DNA from: Phycisphaerae bacterium
Lineage (GTDB): Bacteria > Planctomycetota > Phycisphaerae > Phycisphaerales > SM1A02
Direction: 5' to 3'
DNA length: 37,319 bases
Assembly: GCA_018657585.1 (NCBI GenBank)
Contig: JABHWX010000057.1
Span: forward strand, 1 to 37,319
Positions 8,718-36,288 of this stretch are shown piece after piece. The notes beneath the pieces were generated by a model. It had not been told where the DNA came from and did not search any database. It saw nothing but the letters and a program-made list of their open reading frames with translations. Each line of letters starts with the position of its first letter. Positions within the stretch are counted from its first letter, which is position 1. The translations under genes and the position numbers were made by a program.

Positions 8718-8723
8718 AGTATA
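8718..8723 (-). promoter_or_regulatory. Candidate -10 element of parA (leaderless)
   Basis: Reading the minus strand, TATACT (5 of 6 to the sigma70 -10) lies 6 nt before the GTG start of parA, so transcription would begin at or next to the start codon. No Shine-Dalgarno is present and no good -35 is seen. The remaining 120-nt gap up to recO is AT-rich without a hairpin. Confidence 0.35.
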
Positions 8724-10844: not shown

Positions 10845-12311
10845 TTAATTGTGAATCATTCTGTCTTCGGTTCCAAGGGCTGCCTCGTGAATGGATTCCG
10901 CCATTGTTGGGTGCGGGTGCATCGTAGAGATAATATCCTCTACAGTCGCTTCAAGACGAATCGCCAAACCTATTTCTGCAATGAGTTCACTGGCATCGTG
11001 TCCAATAATGTGTGCCCCTAAAATTTCGCCGTATGGTTTGCTCGCTAGTATTTTTACAACACCTTCTGTTGCACCAACAGCGAGTGCTTTGCCATGCGAC
11101 TTTAATGAATACTCGCCTTTGATATATTCAATACCCGCATCTTTGACTTGTTGTTCCGTCATTCCAATCGATGCAATTTGTGGATTCGTGTACGTGCAAC
11201 CAGGAATTGATTTATAGTCAACGCCAAAAGTATGGTGCCCTGACATCCGTTCAACACAAGACGCAGCTTCTTCTGAAGCAACGTGTGCAAGGAGCGGCGG
11301 TCCAATGACATCGCCAATTGCATAGATTCCAGAAACACTGGTTTTATATGTTGGCTCGTCTACATCCTTCGCATCCGTTTTTATATACCCTCGATGCAAC
11401 TCAATACCAAGCGAATCGTCAAAAAGACCGTCACAGCGTGGTCCAACGCCAATTGCAACTAGAACTTTTTGCGCTTCAATGGTTGACTCTTTGTCACCTT
11501 TTGTAAATGTAACTGTTGCACCGTTGTCATTTGTCTCAATCGCGTTTACCGAAGCGCCAGTGTGAATATCCATCCCCTGCTTTTTAAAAGCACGTCCTGC
11601 AAGTTTGCTGATGTCCTCGTCTTCAAGCGGGAGAATACGATCAAGCATTTCGATAATTGTTACCTTCGTGCCGAATGCATTGTATACATACGCAAACTCC
11701 ATACCTATTGCACCCGAACCAATAATGGCAAGAGACTCTGGTCGTTCTTCAAGTGTCATCGCATGAGAAGATTGTAAAATTGTTTTGCTATCACAGGGAG
11801 CAAATGGTAACTCTCGCGGTTTTGCACCAGTTGCAATCAGGACTCGGTCCGCGGTAACTGTTTCAAGAACATCGTCTCCATTTCCGTTGTAATAATCACC
11901 GGTTGGTTTGCGAACTTCAACGCTGCATGGTGTTACACCGTTGTTACCAGAGGTAATGTGTGCATGCCCACTAATGTGTTCAACGCCATTTTTCTTAAAC
12001 AAGAAACCAACGCCACCATTGAGTTGCTCAGTAATTTTTCGGCTTCGACCAATGAAAGCACCCCAATCAACCGAAACTTCACCAACGTTGATGCCCCACT
12101 CTTTGCCGTGGTTTACCGCTTCGTCATAAACCTCTGCTCCGTGCAACAATGCTTTTGATGGAATGCAACCCCAGTTCAAACATACGCCACCCAATTTATC
12201 TCGGTCAATACAGGCAACTTGTAAACCGAGTTGCGAAGCGCGAATTGCCCCAACATAGCCGCCCGGACCCGAGCCAATTACAATCAAATCAAAATGTCGC
12301 TGCGTAGTCAA
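10845..12311 (-). CDS. lpdA: Dihydrolipoyl dehydrogenase (E3)
   Basis: 488 aa flavoprotein that reoxidises dihydrolipoamide in pyruvate or 2-oxoglutarate dehydrogenase or the glycine cleavage system. FAD-binding GSGPGG is at 13-18, the redox disulfide GGVCLNWGC at 41-49 (Cys44, Cys49), an NAD-binding GSGAIG near 197, and the C-terminal active-site HPHPT motif is present. The start is TTG at 12311, supported by an AAGGAAGG ribosome site 8 nt upstream. No other complex subunit is in the window, so E3 stands alone. The 197-nt gap to the next gene carries the divergent control regions; a possible minus-strand -10 (TACTAT) is seen in it, without a strong -35. Confidence 0.95.
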   Translation of the reverse strand: MTTQRHFDLIVIGSGPGGYVGAIRASQLGLQVACIDRDKLGGVCLNWGCIPSKALLHGAEVYDEAVNHGKEWGINVGEVSVDWGAFIGRSRKITEQLNGGVGFLFKKNGVEHISGHAHITSGNNGVTPCSVEVRKPTGDYYNGNGDDVLETVTADRVLIATGAKPRELPFAPCDSKTILQSSHAMTLEERPESLAIIGSGAIGMEFAYVYNAFGTKVTIIEMLDRILPLEDEDISKLAGRAFKKQGMDIHTGASVNAIETNDNGATVTFTKGDKESTIEAQKVLVAIGVGPRCDGLFDDSLGIELHRGYIKTDAKDVDEPTYKTSVSGIYAIGDVIGPPLLAHVASEEAASCVERMSGHHTFGVDYKSIPGCTYTNPQIASIGMTEQQVKDAGIEYIKGEYSLKSHGKALAVGATEGVVKILASKPYGEILGAHIIGHDASELIAEIGLAIRLEATVEDIISTMHPHPTMAESIHEAALGTEDRMIHN

Positions 12312-12508: not shown

Positions 12509-13270
12509 ATGCGAACTGCATTAATCAGCGACATCCATGGCAACCTTGAAGCACTCAATCGAGTGTTGGAGGCAATATTTGATCAAAAAACAGATCGAAT
12601 TGTCTGTTTGGGTGACACTCTTGGGTATGGTCCAAACCCTGTAGAGTGTGTGGATCTTATTGAAGAGCATTGCGAGTGGAGCCTCCTTGGAAATCACGAT
12701 TACGGGGCACTCTACGAACCAACCAACTTTAACGCTGCTGCTGAACAGGCTGCGTACTGGACTCGCGCGCAATTTGACGCCGAAGAAGACACGGAAGTTG
12801 CAGCAAAACGTTGGGAATTTTTAGGGTCTCTCCGTGTGAGAACGCAAATGGATGATTTCCTCTGTGTTCATGGTACACCTCGCCGACCAATCAACGAATA
12901 TCTCTTTCCAGATGACGCCATCAATTCACCAGTAAAAATGAAACAGATTTTTGAACGCATCCCAAAATATTCCATGTCTGGGCATACACATGTCCCTGGG
13001 ATTTTCACAAACGAACCCGAATTCTATCCTCCTGACGAATTAGATTATTCTTTCTCTTATAAGGATGAGGAAAAGTTCATTATCAATCCTGGCTCCGTTG
13101 GGCAGCCGCGTGACCTTGACCCAAAATTAAGTTACGCAGTCCTTGATGATAAAAAATACACTGTAGACTTTTATCGTCTTGATTACGATATAGATAGCGT
13201 ACGAGATAAAATTTACGCCATTCCAGATCTCAGCAATTGGCTCGGGGATCGATTGCTCGAAGGTCGTTAA
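12509..13270 (+). CDS. Calcineurin-like metallophosphoesterase (YfcE/DevT-like)
   Basis: 253 aa. The metallophosphoesterase motifs are complete: SDIHGN at 7-12, LGDTLGYGP at about 34-42, LGNHDYG at about 60-66, and SGHTHVPG near 155, followed by NPGSVGQPRD. Such proteins hydrolyse phosphomonoesters or diesters with two metal ions; the subgroup acting on whole proteins or small diesters cannot be separated by eye. An AGGAAAGAG ribosome site lies about 8 nt before the ATG. It stands 25 nt upstream of yidC and probably shares its transcript. Confidence 0.88.
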   Translation: MRTALISDIHGNLEALNRVLEAIFDQKTDRIVCLGDTLGYGPNPVECVDLIEEHCEWSLLGNHDYGALYEPTNFNAAAEQAAYWTRAQFDAEEDTEVAAKRWEFLGSLRVRTQMDDFLCVHGTPRRPINEYLFPDDAINSPVKMKQIFERIPKYSMSGHTHVPGIFTNEPEFYPPDELDYSFSYKDEEKFIINPGSVGQPRDLDPKLSYAVLDDKKYTVDFYRLDYDIDSVRDKIYAIPDLSNWLGDRLLEGR

Positions 13271-17488: not shown

Positions 17489-17494
17489 ATCTTA
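17489..17494 (-). promoter_or_regulatory. Candidate -10 element of dciA
   Basis: On the minus strand TAAGAT lies 6 nt before the ATG of dciA, with a weak TTGGTT 18 nt further upstream. The spacing would give a leaderless transcript. The hexamer matches the consensus at 4 of 6 positions only. Confidence 0.28.
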
Positions 17495-17578
17495 ACTCTT
17501 ACACAAACGTAAAACCAAATAAAAGTTCTTCTATTTCTTCCATACAAATGTTTTGTGGTGCTGCTATTGTTTCGACAT

Positions 17579-21396: not shown

Positions 21397-21615
21397 ATGT
21401 CTGAACAAAAAAATTCATGTCCCGACCCGCTTAAGTACTCAAATAGAACATCTCTACCGTTTACTGACTGCGCTGATAACCGTCTAGGTTCAACTCGTAA
21501 CAGTCGGTATGACCATGGTTTGCTTAAGTTCGCTGGTGCGGAACTTCAAATTAGACAATTCGCATCCATTATGGGTATGGTTGGAAGCGATGACGATTAC
21601 CCAACCGCTGCCTAG
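21397..21615 (+). CDS. Small hypothetical protein, acidic C-terminus
   Basis: 72 aa from the ATG at 21397, preceded by a modest AGG 8 nt upstream and by a candidate promoter. The N-terminal half is polar with Cys at two places; the C-terminal half, LLKFAGAELQIRQFASIMGMVG followed by an acidic SDDDYP end, could form one amphipathic helix and a tail. No family is recognised. Its TAG stop shares the four bases CTAG (21612-21615) with the stop of the convergent gene, which supports a real gene on each side. An upstream in-frame start at 21364 is possible. Confidence 0.5.
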   Translation: MSEQKNSCPDPLKYSNRTSLPFTDCADNRLGSTRNSRYDHGLLKFAGAELQIRQFASIMGMVGSDDDYPTAA

Positions 21616-22142
21616 GGCGTTGAAAGCACTATTTCTAATACAAGGGCGGTTAAACGATGGCGTCTATACGCCTCATTCTCAATAAATTGAAGGGTGTGGG
21701 GGTCAGTTGCAATGGGCTTGAAAAACGATCTTCCATGTGTTGTTTCAACAATTGTCGGTTGCACCATGGATGGATGATATTCTTGATCTCCCTGCAATTC
21801 GCCAAGTTGCGTTGCAAAGTCCGCGGGAATATCTCCTATGTAGTACACCGTACCTGCTGGGACAATTGGTATGTCACCCGACCCAGTCTGAAGATAAGCC
21901 GATTTCTGGAAAACCGCAGTCAGACCGCCTGATTTACGCACAAAAATACCATCGCTTCCCGCAACTCGGTAAAGTTTTTCAAACCCCATATCCACCCTGA
22001 GATCCTGTTGTTGCATCTTAAACGATGCGCTATGTGCCCCCACATCTTCAACACCAGCATCTACTGGAACCAACTCTAAATGGGTGGGTTGGGCTAAACA
22101 TAAAAAAGATATGAAACTCAAGGCAAAGCCGTAGTAAATCAT
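21612..22142 (-). CDS. Secreted protein of unknown function
   Basis: 176 aa from the ATG at 22142. Residues 1-17 form a hydrophobic signal peptide with a likely cut after LCLA before QPTHLE. The mature part looks mainly beta, with YRVAGSDGIFVRKSGG, an IPIVPAGTVYYIGDIP stretch and a basic helical end. No known domain was recognised. It diverges from the MOSC gene with only 24 nt between the two starts. A longer reading to 22163 would run into that space. Location is probably periplasmic. Confidence 0.65.
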   Translation of the reverse strand: MIYYGFALSFISFLCLAQPTHLELVPVDAGVEDVGAHSASFKMQQQDLRVDMGFEKLYRVAGSDGIFVRKSGGLTAVFQKSAYLQTGSGDIPIVPAGTVYYIGDIPADFATQLGELQGDQEYHPSMVQPTIVETTHGRSFFKPIATDPHTLQFIENEAYRRHRLTALVLEIVLSTP

Positions 22143-22153
22143 GATGAGTTGAG

Positions 22154-22159
22154 TATAGT
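22154..22159 (+). promoter_or_regulatory. Candidate -10 element of the MOSC gene
   Basis: TATAGT (5/6 match) ends 7 nt before the ATG at 22167; no Shine-Dalgarno fits in the remaining space. No good -35 was found. It would give a leaderless mRNA from the 24-nt gap to the divergent secreted-protein gene. Confidence 0.3.
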
Positions 22160-22166
22160 CCACTTC

Positions 22167-22610
22167 ATGGCAAAAGTACTCTCTGTAAACGTATCAAAAG
22201 GTGGAATTCCAAAACTACCAACGGCTTCGTGCAACGTGACTGTTGATGGACTTGAGGGAGATGGACGTAATCATGATAAACACATTTCCCCTGATAGAGC
22301 AGTCAGTTTAATTGATATTGAAATTCTGCATCAACTTGTAAATGAAGGCTACGACGTTATTCCTGGCGCAGTCGGTGAAAACCTCACAGTTGAAAACCTT
22401 GACGTACAAACGTTAGAGCCAGGAGACCATCTTGTTTTCTCTGGTGGAGTCGAAATTGAACTTGTCGAAAGTAGACGCCCGTGCTTTGTTCTTGACCCGC
22501 TCGGAATAGACCTTAAAAAGATAATTGTTGGACGTTGTGGATATCTTGCAAAAGTGATTACCGAGGGAATATTTACTCCCGGTGAAACAATCTCTGTTGT
22601 CAAATCGTAG
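22167..22610 (+). CDS. MOSC-domain protein
   Basis: 147 aa, the size of a stand-alone MOSC domain (the C-terminal domain of molybdenum cofactor sulfurases, also in YiiM and mARC). The segments VEGDGRNHDKH-like (GLEGDGRNHDKHISPDRAV), GAVGENLTVENLD and the conserved Cys of RRPCFVLDPLG are all present; that Cys is thought to carry sulfur or ligate Mo. It starts a run with mobA and lies opposite a molybdopterin oxidoreductase gene, so a role in maturing or using Moco is likely. An upstream TTG at 22149 would overlap the spacer and is less likely. Confidence 0.87.
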   Translation: MAKVLSVNVSKGGIPKLPTASCNVTVDGLEGDGRNHDKHISPDRAVSLIDIEILHQLVNEGYDVIPGAVGENLTVENLDVQTLEPGDHLVFSGGVEIELVESRRPCFVLDPLGIDLKKIIVGRCGYLAKVITEGIFTPGETISVVKS

Positions 22611-28600: not shown

Positions 28601-28638
28601 TACGCTGAAAGATACCAGAGCAGTATCATACGAAGTAC

Positions 28639-31386
28639 ATGCGTAAGAAGAAAATATCTTTGTGGTTTGGGATAGGGCTTGGTTGTATTGCAATTGGTGC
28701 GTTTTTTGCAATTCCACCAATTGTTGAGCAACTTCTCATCGGAAAGATTGCCGAGAACCCGGCGTACTCCGTTCGGGATGTCAGCGTTTCTTGGAAAGGC
28801 CCCCAAACTATTCGGGGTCTTCACGTTGAAGATGAATTTGGGTCAGCTGATATTGACGTAGAACTTTCCGGTGGACTTCTTGCTGTTCTTACACAGCCCT
28901 ACCAATTTGTTGTGAGTGGGGACATGGTTATACAGTCAACATTTGATTCCGTTAAAGGATCGGCTGGGCCAAGTGGTAAAAAGGAAAACGAACCTGCGCC
29001 TAAAACGGAGACCGAGCTATTTACGCTTCCTTGGTTCACCGCAGATATTGAACTTGAAACTGTCACTATCAATGCCGATGAGCCGCTCGTCTACCACGAT
29101 GTCAAAGGCGAGTTTATTGTAGAACCGGGTAGAGTCTGCTCTTTCAATTTAGACGCGAAAACAGACCGCGGTGGAAGTATTGTTTGTTTCGGAAATGCAC
29201 CAGACTTGTTAACTGAACAGGGTGAATTAAATTGGAACGCAAGTGCTTCGATGAACGTGTCCGTTAGAGATGCAGCAATTCCAACAATCGATGGGCAGGG
29301 TGGTTGGTCTGTCACAAGTCTTGATGGAGATATAACTACACCAAAATTGAGCGAAACAATCGTAGTATCCATGGTTGGCGAGTTTTCGCAATACGATATT
29401 CCTAGAGGAATAGCATCAATAAAAACACAATTCCAAAATACGCTACATTCGAGAGATCCATTTACCTTTAAGGGCAAGGAAATTGTTGGGACAATTGATG
29501 TGCAAGAGGTACCAACATCTATTCTTGCACCATTACTCAACAAATATGGTGTCGACACTGCTCGTGATTTGGGTGAAACAATGGAGTTTCATCTTGCAAG
29601 AGCAACTGAAGATTCTCTTCTATCTGCATCGTTTCAATCTGATAACGTTTCCGCTGAAGGAATTGTTGATTTCGAAATGGGGATACTCACCAACGTCTCA
29701 ATCACTGCAGATATTGGAACTGAGTTTGTTCAAGAATTAAGCAACGGTGAACTTTCAGGTGATGCAAATGCCAGTATTTACCTTAATCGACTTGTCCCTA
29801 TCGGTTTCAGCCACGATGACAAAAAAGAGTGCGAAGGAAGTCTAGTCGTAAAAGGAAACTTGCAACACGTTCCTACAGAGACCAGTATCTCTTATCTTCA
29901 ATCAGACTTCAGTGCAAATTTGAACTTGCGAAAGGTAATCATATCTGGCGTTATAACGCTCAATGAAAGTAACGCAACATATATTGCGACGTTTTTATCC
30001 ACAAACAAAAACAAATTACATGGCATTGATGATTTGTGGACGACCATTTTCAACCAACTTCCTCGTGGAAATGGCAGGGTTGCAATGGAGCGAGTTCCAA
30101 CTTCAATATTACATTACTACATCCCCCAAGAACAACAACAATTTTCTACGTTACTAGGAGAGGCGTTCTCTTTTAGCGCAACATTTTCGCAAAATGACAT
30201 TCAATTAGGATTGATTGGTGACGCTGTGCGAGCGGACGGTACCGTCTCGCTACTTGGCAACAATATTGTTACCGAGATAATCGACGTTGAAATACGCAGT
30301 GTATTACCCGCAGAATTATCAAGCACCCTACTTGGAGTTCGCATCGATAATGAATCTAAAATAGCAGTCGACATTCCTAGAATTGACATTGCAGGAAACT
30401 CTTCATTCTCCGCAATCTATGAAATTGGCTTACAGAAAACTTTTGTGAACGGAAAAACTACCAGGAAAATTGAGGGAGATCGAATAGGGGAGTTGGACGT
30501 ACACCTTGCTATGACAGGTGTTGACACACGCCTTCTGGATGCAATTCTTAATTGCAGCGGGCTTCTCGCTAATTCCCTTGGTTCACCCCTTGCCGTTGAA
30601 GTCATCGCAACCGATATTCTCGGCAAACCCATTGTCAAGGCTGGTGGGACCTCGCCAAACTCTGCATTTGAAACGTCTTTAGGCTTCTTTGATGGCAAGG
30701 TGTTTACTATTCCAGAAATACCTACAAAAGTTGATTTGCAACTCTCGCCGCAACTGACACAACATTTCCTGAAGGACTTAGGACCAGTACTCTCAGATAT
30801 TCGCTCGGTAAAAAATCCCATACGGATGACGGTGTCGAACGCGAGTACCACAACGGATGGAAATGTCGCTTCACTAAATGCAGACATTCTCATTAACATC
30901 GGAGAGGTAGAACTTGACAGTGGATCTGCAACCATGAAGCTACTACCAATGTTTAACACAAAACATGTTGAGATAGTTCCTGCATTCTTTGACCCTATTC
31001 AGATAGAAATACGAAATGGAATTGCGACGTACAAAAGGTTTAACCTTACACTCGTTGGGAAATATTCAATTCCCTATTCAGGAACTATTGACTTTGTAAC
31101 ACGGCAACTTAATATTAAAACAGCTGTTCCTCTCAGTGGTCTTGGATACAGCATTAAAGAACTACGTGGATTAACGACGGATATAGATGTGCCAATACTC
31201 ATCACGGGAACCATTGATCACCCAATAACAAACGTTGACCCTAATTTTGATCTCGGTAAATTGTTACAAAATGCTGCTCTTGGTGTTATTGGCGACGCAT
31301 TGGGTGGGGCTCTCGACGGAGATGGAACTGAAAAAGAAGCACCAAATCCACTCGACCTTCTTGAAGACTTGTTAGGCGGTCACTAA
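28639..31386 (+). CDS. Large AsmA-like envelope protein
   Basis: 915 aa with one N-terminal transmembrane helix (about 8-28) and a long periplasmic part that is almost entirely beta-strand and Thr/Ser/Asp rich. The beginning (PPIVEQLLIGKIAENPAYSVRDVSVSW) resembles AsmA/DUF748-like N-termini, and residues about 800-880 end with TDIDVPILITGTIDHP, the form of the AsmA_2-type C-terminal repeat, before a Gly/Asp-rich tail. AsmA proteins are proposed to bridge the periplasm for phospholipid transport to the outer membrane, which implies a diderm host. It is followed by tag after 2 nt. A TATCAT element lies 9 nt before the ATG. Confidence 0.75.
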   Translation: MRKKKISLWFGIGLGCIAIGAFFAIPPIVEQLLIGKIAENPAYSVRDVSVSWKGPQTIRGLHVEDEFGSADIDVELSGGLLAVLTQPYQFVVSGDMVIQSTFDSVKGSAGPSGKKENEPAPKTETELFTLPWFTADIELETVTINADEPLVYHDVKGEFIVEPGRVCSFNLDAKTDRGGSIVCFGNAPDLLTEQGELNWNASASMNVSVRDAAIPTIDGQGGWSVTSLDGDITTPKLSETIVVSMVGEFSQYDIPRGIASIKTQFQNTLHSRDPFTFKGKEIVGTIDVQEVPTSILAPLLNKYGVDTARDLGETMEFHLARATEDSLLSASFQSDNVSAEGIVDFEMGILTNVSITADIGTEFVQELSNGELSGDANASIYLNRLVPIGFSHDDKKECEGSLVVKGNLQHVPTETSISYLQSDFSANLNLRKVIISGVITLNESNATYIATFLSTNKNKLHGIDDLWTTIFNQLPRGNGRVAMERVPTSILHYYIPQEQQQFSTLLGEAFSFSATFSQNDIQLGLIGDAVRADGTVSLLGNNIVTEIIDVEIRSVLPAELSSTLLGVRIDNESKIAVDIPRIDIAGNSSFSAIYEIGLQKTFVNGKTTRKIEGDRIGELDVHLAMTGVDTRLLDAILNCSGLLANSLGSPLAVEVIATDILGKPIVKAGGTSPNSAFETSLGFFDGKVFTIPEIPTKVDLQLSPQLTQHFLKDLGPVLSDIRSVKNPIRMTVSNASTTTDGNVASLNADILINIGEVELDSGSATMKLLPMFNTKHVEIVPAFFDPIQIEIRNGIATYKRFNLTLVGKYSIPYSGTIDFVTRQLNIKTAVPLSGLGYSIKELRGLTTDIDVPILITGTIDHPITNVDPNFDLGKLLQNAALGVIGDALGGALDGDGTEKEAPNPLDLLEDLLGGH

Positions 31387-33131: not shown

Positions 33132-33959
33132 ATGAGATTCGGAAAAAACATGTTAAGAACAAGTAATCCTGCCCTAAAGAATCAAACAGCTTGGCGCGAT
33201 GGGGTGGCAGAAGGCGGAACTGGAACTGCCTCTATTCAAGGTGCTGTAAATAAAACAGCCATGCTGACAGCCGTCGCGCTAGCTGGAGGAATGGGCAGCA
33301 TCGTTCTTATGAAAAACCCTAATTTCAGCCAATACGCTTGGATTCTCGGAATTGGCGGTTTTATTGCAACTCTTGTTGTGTACTTCATGATTTTACGAAA
33401 TCCCATGCGGGCAAAAAGTATGGCTTGGGTATACGCGGCAATACAAGGTGCATTCCTTGGTGTTCTCACAAAAGCACTTGATAGCACTCTTGCTTCAATG
33501 GAAATAGCTGTCCCTGGAGGGCTTGCTCTTCAAGCATTCGCAATCACGATGAGCGTTTTGGTTGCCATGCTCACTTTGTATTATTTCCGAATTCTTAAAC
33601 CAACAAAAATGTTTGTAAATGTTGTTTCTGTTTTAACCCTTGGGATTTTTATCACATACATGGTTTCATTCGCCATGTCGTTCTTTGGTGCCGAAATGCC
33701 ATTCCTTAATCTTGGATCTGCTATCAAAGGTGGAACCGCGGGGTGGATTGGGGTTGGAATCAACGTATTAATTTTAGGCGTTGCATCGCTTTGGCTCATC
33801 ATTGATTTTGGAATGATCGAACAACAGATTCAATCTGGAGCTCCAAAACAGATGGAGTGGTTCTGTGGTTTTATTCTGATGGTAACACTCGTCTGGATTT
33901 ATCTAGAAGCCCTCAAGTTATGTTTCAGGCTTGCTGTTCTTTTGAACAATAGAGATTAA
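33132..33959 (+). CDS. Bax inhibitor-1/YccA-type membrane protein (BaxI_1 family)
   Basis: 275 aa. A soluble N-terminus with TSNPALKNQTAW is the mark of the BaxI_1 group, followed by about seven hydrophobic helices spread from residue 45 to 270. Bax inhibitor-1 relatives act as membrane regulators or pH-gated calcium channels; the bacterial role is unclear. A strong GGAGG ribosome site lies 9 nt before the ATG, unlike most neighbours. The stop overlaps the convergent ribBA stop by 4 nt (33956-33959). Confidence 0.85.
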   Translation: MRFGKNMLRTSNPALKNQTAWRDGVAEGGTGTASIQGAVNKTAMLTAVALAGGMGSIVLMKNPNFSQYAWILGIGGFIATLVVYFMILRNPMRAKSMAWVYAAIQGAFLGVLTKALDSTLASMEIAVPGGLALQAFAITMSVLVAMLTLYYFRILKPTKMFVNVVSVLTLGIFITYMVSFAMSFFGAEMPFLNLGSAIKGGTAGWIGVGINVLILGVASLWLIIDFGMIEQQIQSGAPKQMEWFCGFILMVTLVWIYLEALKLCFRLAVLLNNRD

Positions 33960-35140
33960 CGATCGCAATCTGCGTCGATTGGAATTTGCTGTTCAATATC
34001 AATTCCAAAACCATGCAGAGCCGTTAAGTGTTTTGGATGATTCGTAAGCAAGTTTAATTTCTTCAAGCCTAGGTCGCGAATTATTTGAACGCCTGTTCCA
34101 TAATCACGACGATCCATCGGATGCTCTGAAACAGTTAAATCTGGAACATTGAAATCAGTTTCAGGTCGTTGTATTTTTTGTAAGCGATCAATAAACTCAT
34201 CCCCATATTGTTCTGGTCGCATATATATTAGTGCACCCCTCCCAGTGGCCGCAATCATTCTCAGTGATGCTCGCAGTTCGCGACCGGATGGGTGATTAGT
34301 TGCATCAAAAATGTCTCCAAGTAAATTTCGTCTATGAACCCTGACAAGTGTGGGTTCCTCTATCGCTTTCGCCGTCCCGTATTCATCAAGTTCCCCAACT
34401 CCTCCAACAGTAAGAGCAAGATGGGGAACAGCATCAATGTCACTGTGGTACGCAATTAAATTAAAGGTGCCGTATGGTGTTTCGATTGGTGTGCCGCATC
34501 GTGGATCAATTCGACTGACAAGGCTTTCACGTGCAAGTCGATACTCAATAATTTGTTCTACAGAACACATCTTTAAAGAATGTTCTTCGCAAATTTTTTC
34601 TAAGTCTGGCACTCTTGCCATCTCACCATCTTCCTTAACAATTTCAATAATGACAGCGGAAGGTGTAAGGCCAGCAAGTTTGCAAAGATCGACCGAACCC
34701 TCGGTCTGACCGGTGCGAGCAAGTACCCCACCATCTCGCGCACGAAGTGGGTTTATGTGTCCAGGACGAACAAAATCGTCTGGTCTTGTGTTTGGATCAG
34801 CAAGCAGTTCAAGCGTCTTCACCCTATCCGCAGCAGAGATGCCTGTACTCACGTTGTGTCGCGGGTGCCCATCCACACTAATTGTAAATGGAGTACCTCG
34901 AACACTTGTGTTGTCTGAAACTTGGGGACCTAACTCAAGACGATCACAATCTTCACCAGTCATGGCGACGCAGAGATAACCACCACCGATACGAGTAAAA
35001 AAGTTGATGAGTTCAATATCAATATGTTCAGTAGCAACTACAAAATCACCTTCGTTTTCCCTATTTTCATCGTCCACAAGGACGATGACCTTCCCATCAC
35101 GAAGGTCGCTTATTATTTCCTCTATTGGTGCTAACGCCAT
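33956..35140 (-). CDS. ribB: RibBA-like protein: RibB domain plus degenerate GTP cyclohydrolase II domain
   Basis: 394 aa. Residues 1-205 are 3,4-dihydroxy-2-butanone 4-phosphate synthase: DDENRENEGDF (23-33), STGISAADR (98-106), RPGHINPLRARDGGVL (125-140). Gln145 stands where E. coli RibB has metal ligand His153. Residues 206-394 follow the RibA fold, ending LTNHPK, but its zinc site is gone: aligned without gaps, the three Cys become Asn272, His283 and Ser285, and the RQEGR catalytic loop reads RPEQY. It thus probably makes only the butanone precursor of riboflavin, as proposed for RibBX-type homologues. TAAAAT lies 6 nt before the ATG. Confidence 0.88.
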   Translation of the reverse strand: MALAPIEEIISDLRDGKVIVLVDDENRENEGDFVVATEHIDIELINFFTRIGGGYLCVAMTGEDCDRLELGPQVSDNTSVRGTPFTISVDGHPRHNVSTGISAADRVKTLELLADPNTRPDDFVRPGHINPLRARDGGVLARTGQTEGSVDLCKLAGLTPSAVIIEIVKEDGEMARVPDLEKICEEHSLKMCSVEQIIEYRLARESLVSRIDPRCGTPIETPYGTFNLIAYHSDIDAVPHLALTVGGVGELDEYGTAKAIEEPTLVRVHRRNLLGDIFDATNHPSGRELRASLRMIAATGRGALIYMRPEQYGDEFIDRLQKIQRPETDFNVPDLTVSEHPMDRRDYGTGVQIIRDLGLKKLNLLTNHPKHLTALHGFGIDIEQQIPIDADCDR

Positions 35141-35146
35141 TCGCTT

Positions 35147-35152
35147 ATTTTA
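35147..35152 (-). promoter_or_regulatory. Candidate -10 element of the RibBA-like gene
   Basis: On the minus strand TAAAAT (5/6) lies 6 nt before the ATG at 35140, predicting a leaderless mRNA. No convincing -35 is present. It overlaps the -35 of the divergent M42 gene. Confidence 0.4.
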
Positions 35153-35178
35153 CTCGGTTTGGTGCCTGGCACTATGAT
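35149..35178 (+). promoter_or_regulatory. Promoter of the M42 peptidase gene, probably leaderless
   Basis: TTTACT (35149-35154), an 18-nt spacer and TATGAT (35173-35178) match sigma70 at 4/6 and 5/6. The ATG at 35185 comes 6 nt later, so transcription should begin at the start codon itself. There is no Shine-Dalgarno. Confidence 0.5.
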
Positions 35179-35184
35179 ACGCAG

Positions 35185-36288
35185 ATGAAAAAGCATCTGA
35201 ATTGGTTGATGGATATAACTGCTATTCCGACGGCTGCGGGTCAGGAGTGGCGAGTTGTTGATTGGGTTGAACAGTGGGTTAATAAACAAAAGGGTATTGA
35301 ATTTCGTAAAGACAAATTCGGAAACTTGATTCTCACCCAAACTCGCAAATCATCCAGAAAACCAATCTATATCACCGCTCACTTAGATCACCCTGCATTT
35401 GTGGTTCGTAAACAAATCGATGATCAACATCTCGAAATGGAGTTTAGGGGTGGTGTAAACGATGCTTATTTTGTCGGAGCCAAAGTCGAAGTGTTTGACA
35501 ATGAAGACAACCGTTACATAGGCACAATTCAATCGCTCGACGCAAAGGCGAAACCATTTAAGCGAGTTGTTGTGCAACTCAATAAAGGTGTTGCAGGAAT
35601 ACTGATTCAAGATGACATTGCTCGCTGGAGGTTCCCTCCTCCAGTTGTAAAAAACGGCTTGCTACATGCCCCCGCTTGTGATGATCTTGCGGGCGTTGCT
35701 GCAGCTGTTTGCGCACTCGATAAAATTAAAAAAATACCTGCTCTCGGAAACGTCGGTGTACTTCTAACACGGGCCGAGGAAATTGGTTTTGTTGGCGCAA
35801 TTGCTGCGGCGAAACATCGCTCAGTTCCAAAAACGTCGAGATTGCTCTGCCTTGAAACATCAAGAAGTTTTCCAGAGTCACCTATTGGCGGCGGGCCAAT
35901 TCTTCGGGTAGGTGATAAGACCAGTGTATTTGGACCTGAGCTTACGAACGCTGCAACTGAAATCATGAACGCGCAAAAGAATTTTTCTTGGCAACGAAAA
36001 CTAATGCCTGGTGGGACGTGTGAGTCCACTGCATTTTGTGGCTACGGTTTTCTTTCAACGTGTTTATGCTTAGCATTAGGTAATTACCACAACATGAAAG
36101 ACATTGATGGTGTTTTACAAAAGAACAAGCCCGCAAAAGTCGCTCCTGAAGTTATATCAGTGAACGATTTTCATGGGCTTGTTGATATGTTAAAAATTGT
36201 TTGCCGAGACTTAGATAAACCAAGAAAAACAACTCTGCGCAAAGGTCTCGAAACTCGGTTAACAATGTATCGCAAAATCCTTAGTTAG
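35185..36288 (+). CDS. Divergent M42-family aminopeptidase
   Basis: 367 aa from the ATG at 35185, which follows a -10 element by 6 nt; an earlier in-frame start at 35125 lies in the divergent gene. The M42 metal and catalytic motifs can be followed: TAHLDHPAF (His and Asp, with His in place of the usual Glu after Asp), ACDDLAGVAAAV (bridging Asp), RAEEIGFVGA (Glu pair), CLETSRS, and GNYHNMKD with the last His. Family members are large cobalt or zinc aminopeptidases in the cytoplasm. The changes around the first and last motif make it a distant branch whose substrate is unknown. Its 3' end overlaps the convergent lipoprotein gene by 8 nt. Confidence 0.82.
   Translation: MKKHLNWLMDITAIPTAAGQEWRVVDWVEQWVNKQKGIEFRKDKFGNLILTQTRKSSRKPIYITAHLDHPAFVVRKQIDDQHLEMEFRGGVNDAYFVGAKVEVFDNEDNRYIGTIQSLDAKAKPFKRVVVQLNKGVAGILIQDDIARWRFPPPVVKNGLLHAPACDDLAGVAAAVCALDKIKKIPALGNVGVLLTRAEEIGFVGAIAAAKHRSVPKTSRLLCLETSRSFPESPIGGGPILRVGDKTSVFGPELTNAATEIMNAQKNFSWQRKLMPGGTCESTAFCGYGFLSTCLCLALGNYHNMKDIDGVLQKNKPAKVAPEVISVNDFHGLVDMLKIVCRDLDKPRKTTLRKGLETRLTMYRKILS

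Follow-up and report, generated by a model that had tools for sequence, protein, structure and literature searches.

The stretch of DNA analysed here (the window; 37,319 nt, 41% GC) belongs to a Phycisphaerae assembly of 1.92 Mb in 232 contigs. Near its end, ribBA and a gene for an M42 peptidase diverge from a gap of 44 nt. The following features were found in this region.

33956..35140, minus strand: ribBA (DHBP synthase / GTP cyclohydrolase II; Pfam), predicted leaderless
35147..35152, minus strand: -10 TAAAAT of ribBA, 6 nt before the ATG (35140); no Shine-Dalgarno (SD) site
35149..35154, plus strand: TTTACT, proposed -35 of the M42 gene, overlapping the ribBA -10 of the opposite strand
35162..35172, strand not assigned: GTGCCTGGCAC, inverted repeat in the middle of the 44-nt gap
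35173..35178, plus strand: -10 TATGAT of the M42 peptidase gene, 6 nt before the ATG (35185)
35185..36288, plus strand: M42 peptidase gene (Pfam), predicted leaderless

Hexamers of the same form precede other genes of the window, which also contains SD-led genes for contrast.

8718..8723, minus strand: -10 TATACT of parA, 6 nt before the GTG (8711), in 13/13 genomes
10845..12311, minus strand: lpdA, SD-led contrast case
12509..13270, plus strand: metallophosphoesterase gene, SD-led contrast case with a leader
17489..17494, minus strand: -10 TAAGAT of dciA, 6 nt before the ATG (17482), in 11/13 genomes
17565..17570, plus strand: -10 TATTGT of the ABC ATPase gene, 8 nt before the ATG (17579)
21612..22142, minus strand: putative secreted-protein gene, start moved to ATG 22142, TATACT 9 nt upstream
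22152..22160: palindromic AGTATAGTC, candidate shared -10, read as TATAGT for MOSC (plus strand) and TATACT for the divergent gene (minus strand)
22167..22610, plus strand: MOSC-domain gene (Pfam), -10 at 7 nt, predicted leaderless
28624..28629, plus strand: -10 TATCAT of the AsmA-like gene, 9 nt before the ATG (28639)

The -10 hexamers and spacings that an earlier note on this DNA had quoted for RibBA, M42, parA, dciA, MOSC, the ABC ATPase and the AsmA-like gene were all present, and SD sites of the AGGA/GGAG type were found, as it had claimed, before parB, BaxI, lpdA and the metallophosphoesterase gene. Its protein names RibBA, M42, ParA, DciA, ABC ATPase, MOSC, phosphoesterase and BaxI were upheld by Pfam, while the AsmA-like protein had no Pfam match. 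The closest named relatives of RibBA are from uncultured Phycisphaerae. An Rfam scan of the window matched no family, so no FMN riboswitch leader was detected before ribBA.

Start-proximal hexamers across the genome

The genome-wide count proposed in the earlier note, of -10 hexamers before starts without an SD against a shuffled control, was carried out on 779 kb of the same assembly (contigs C1-C100 plus the window), with gene calls from a coding-potential model blind to upstream signals. It showed a large position-specific excess with a peak at 6 nt. Of 202 first genes without an SD, 72 carried TANNNT 5-8 nt ahead of the start, against 18.9±4.0 expected from dinucleotide shuffles (maximum 30 across 300 shuffles), and the strict leftmost-ATG subset agreed with the full gene set. 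The observed and expected numbers in these genes were 31 and 3.9 at a gap of 6 nt, 17 and 4.0 at 7 nt and 10 and 3.9 at 8 nt; they were 8 and 3.9 at 9 nt and 9 and 4.0 at 10 nt, and gaps of 3-5 and 11-13 nt were at background. Among SD-led first genes there was no excess at 5-8 nt (4/72 vs 5.1 expected). Set against the 72/202 first genes without an SD, this makes the SD and the start-proximal -10 mutually exclusive signals.

The excess over gaps 5-10 nt amounts to 23.5% of first genes (17.8-29.6%, 95% bootstrap interval), which is probably a lower bound because of start-call errors and -10 boxes other than TANNNT. About another quarter of first genes have an SD, and about half carry neither an SD nor a start-proximal -10 by simple criteria, in part because of start-call errors. 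TATAAT-like hexamers (at least 5/6 positions) were found at gap 6 of first genes 16 times, against 1.3 per position. Such strong hexamers occupied gap 6 in 16/209 first genes versus 0/200 operon-internal genes; the latter had no strong-hexamer peak, and the signal is concentrated at the first genes of transcription units.

The TG of an extended -10 preceded 17/62 start-proximal hexamers versus 16/181 hexamers elsewhere, an enrichment that marks the hexamers as promoter elements. No genome-wide enrichment of -35-like hexamers at a spacing of 16-18 was detected (13/186 vs 31/558). The TTTACT that the earlier note had read as the M42 -35 at 18 nt is present, but it is not conserved in that role; it overlaps the -10 that ribBA itself has on the opposite strand, and congeners do not keep it. 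The 16S rRNA of congeners has an intact anti-SD (CACCTCCTTTC), which agrees with a mixture of SD-led and leaderless genes, and loss of the anti-SD was rejected for these congeners. A 16S rRNA match was not found in the window's own assembly.

Conservation among relatives

In sister species the rest of the intergenic DNA turns over, but orthologues retain the hexamer at the same distance of a few nucleotides. Genes were compared one by one in this genome and 10-12 sister genomes; congeners share ancestry, and the following counts are not independent trials. A -10 at exactly 6 nt, without an SD, precedes RibBA in 11/11 genomes of the genus. For M42, TANNNT is at gap 6-7 in 9/11 genomes and at 9 and 10 in the remaining two. 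TANNNT at 5-8 nt was found in 13/13 genomes for parA and likewise for MOSC, and the ABC gene has it in 13/13, always at gap 8. The two contrast genes had a -10 at 5-8 nt in 0/13 genomes each, with an SD in 13/13 for lpdA and in 12/13 for the metallophosphoesterase. Upstream of the latter, TATCAT is kept at ~27-33 nt, as expected for a leadered mRNA.

Beyond the genus, the M42 pattern was present in 14/17 genomes from other genera and families of the order (mean 64% GC), where 0.5 were expected. Through the order, RibBA had a -10 at 5-8 nt in 11/23 GC-rich genomes versus 0.1 expected, and 7 more had one at 9-11 nt. In the rest of the phylum sample, RibBA had one in 2/25 versus 3.0 expected and an SD in 14/25. 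The phylum comparison consisted of RibBA upstream regions plus ~100 kb from each of four relatives; these four relatives of the same order, pooled with named Phycisphaerae loci, gave 19/157 versus ~3.3 expected. Loci of other phyla, analysed by the same method, showed no excess: 17/98 versus 14.2 expected in Bacteroidota upstream regions (27% GC, SD 7%), 2/16 versus 2.3 in Firmicutes and 2/60 versus 3.6 in Cyanobacteria. The Actinobacteria loci yielded 20 first genes without an SD, too few for a positive control. The choice between a predicted leaderless start and an SD-led start is a stable, gene-specific trait common to Phycisphaerales.

Across the genus, the length of the ribBA-M42 gap ranges between 44 and 141 nt, and both terminal -10 boxes are retained throughout. 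The sequence between the boxes is unrelated between species and often palindromic. REP-like palindromes found there differ among sister species: GGGGTCTGACCCC, GGGGACAGTCCCC, GGTGCCTAGCACC and GTGCCTGGCAC (35153-35172 of the window; congener loci L183-L190). This pattern suggests that mobile palindromes have repeatedly been inserted or replaced between a fixed pair of -10 boxes. A role of GTGCCTGGCAC as a regulator operator is unsupported; it occurs once in 779 kb, and congeners have other palindromes there. A sigma-54-like TGGCAC beside the M42 -10 was also rejected, its spacing to a GC dinucleotide being off by one (by eye) and the motif missing in most congeners. One congener assembly (contigs C26 and C69 of G001) contains two M42 copies with 83% and 82% identity to that of the window and two BaxI copies with 86% and 70% identity, and is perhaps a mixed bin.

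Probable leaderless mRNAs and alternative explanations

It is very probable that the ribBA/M42 gap is formed by back-to-back promoters of leaderless mRNAs and is one case of a genome-wide habit. Two primary-sigma promoters would stand back to back, their -10 boxes at either end of the 44 nt. For many genes, the mRNA appears to begin on the start codon or only a few letters away from it, because the -10 is just 6-9 letters ahead. The start site was placed by the usual distance of 6-8 nt from -10 to start, and for ribBA and M42 transcription would begin at, or 1-2 nucleotides from, the A of each ATG. Both mRNAs would be leaderless and translated without SD pairing, presumably by direct 70S (start-codon-dependent) initiation. 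Genome-wide, a -10 at 6-10 nt would serve roughly a quarter of first genes, often as an extended -10 and with little -35. The analysis shows the sequences, their positions, the statistics and the conservation; the transcription start, the sigma factor use and the mode of translation are what we infer here. The suggestion of the earlier note that leaderless mRNA may be common for first genes gains good sequence-level support from the excess, the controls and the orthologues.

A single TANNNT is common at 41% GC (~10% of first genes per 4-nt frame), but the probability that chance hexamers in AT-rich intergenic DNA explain the pattern is close to nil, as this is refuted by the position-specific excess (72 vs 18.9±4.0) and, for each gene, 9-13 of the 11-13 orthologues retain the site. 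The A/T-rich hexamer could also act in translation, as a site for ribosomal protein S1 or a Bacteroidota-type A-rich enhancer within an ordinary leader. According to Nakagawa et al. 2017 (PMC5397173), the AT bias at -20 to -10 of non-SD genes could stem from leaderless mRNA, from S1 binding or from both; they list Planctomycetes (one species) with the phyla concerned. We consider such a role very improbable: TANNNT is in a fixed register and keeps its form in GC-rich genomes, the TG of the extended -10 is present, and the signal is weak in operon-internal genes and absent from the Bacteroidota controls.

The hexamers could, finally, be real promoters of mRNAs with short leaders (1-8 nt), if transcription started earlier or the true start codon were slightly downstream. 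Gaps of 8-10 nt do occur (always 8 for the ABC gene, 8-9 for the MOSC partner) and would imply a leader of ~1-4 nt, not strictly zero. The peak at 6 nt, however, puts +1 on the start codon, and orthologue alignments mostly begin at the called start codon, which makes short leaders very improbable as the general explanation. The preferred reading, leaderless mRNAs, resembles known systems. Zheng et al. 2011 (PMC3160421) surveyed leaderless genes in which the first T of TANNNT lies ~12 nt ahead of the start. In Deinococcus-Thermus and Actinobacteria (Zheng 2011 PMC3160421; PMC12340547; Cortes 2013 PMC3898074), the TA-led or -10-motif leaderless genes have the same TANNNT at this distance, likewise lack an SD and are mixed with SD-led genes in one genome; they have experimental support, whereas the Phycisphaerales case is drawn from sequence. 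Bacteroidota, with non-SD initiation, likewise have few SD sites at many genes but differ in that our sample had no -10-adjacent peak (17/98 vs 14.2).

Leaderless transcription was predicted by GeneMarkS-2 in 21.6% of bacterial species, as cited in PMC9581028, and in Deinococcota leaderless genes reach ~30% of ORFs (PMC12340547). In Nakagawa et al. 2017 (PMC5397173), one planctomycete species fitted leaderless initiation, S1-mediated initiation or both. Beyond that study, nothing on leaderless transcription or TSS maps in Planctomycetota was found in the literature searched, mostly without subscription papers, and Phycisphaerales are not named in the searched main texts of PMC3160421 and PMC12340547. 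As the mechanism is known elsewhere and no description from Planctomycetota was found in that literature, this would be a new clade for a known mechanism. The results indicate that leaderless expression is a major mode, and a heritable one, in this order of Planctomycetota. It would affect gene-start annotation for about a quarter of first genes and leave no room for leader-based control (e.g. riboswitches) at genes like ribBA.

Compact divergent gene pairs

Divergent pairs 31-60 nt apart had a start-proximal -10 on both sides in 6/14 cases versus 0.21 expected, and the ribBA/M42 gap is arranged in the same way. Among conserved cases, the MOSC gene and the putative secreted-protein gene form the most compact pair, with 24 nt between their start codons and one palindromic -10. 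In 11/13 genomes of the genus this distance is 23 or 24 nt; AGTATAGT(C), which gives the overlapping hexamers TATAGT/TATACT on the two strands, is also kept in 11/13, and the -10 gap of the MOSC partner is 8-9 nt. In some divergent pairs, the two genes appear to share one palindromic -10. We think it rather likely that in such pairs of the genus a single 8-9 bp palindromic -10 is the sole promoter of two (near-)leaderless mRNAs and that the 23-24 nt region holds every signal for starting transcription and translation of the two genes.

A symmetrical -10 shared by both directions is known from bidirectional promoters (Warman 2021; Warman 2026 PMC12825309); it is one short palindrome, as proposed for MOSC and its partner, and common TSS spacings are 10, 18 and 23 bp (PMC12825309). 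The TSS spacing predicted from the geometry of MOSC and its partner, ~22-24 bp, would fit one of these. Unlike in the known cases, both products would be (near-)leaderless, as predicted from sequence, so that the 23-24 nt gap would be the whole intergenic region. The new element here would be a conserved bidirectional variant, in which this pair diverges across 24 nt from a single palindromic -10. Very compact divergent promoters are on offer for study.

The putative secreted protein (21612-22142, minus strand) had no Pfam match; it has a hydrophobic N-terminus followed by a conserved ELIPVDAGVED-like motif and lies beside MOSC in 11/13 genomes. The ispE-like (ATG 28600) and AsmA-like (ATG 28639) genes also diverge, from a 38-nt gap, with a -10-like TATCTT 8 nt before the ispE-like ATG and the -10 of the AsmA-like gene at 9 nt. 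The TTG at 28720, taken as start in the longest ORF, is probably wrong.
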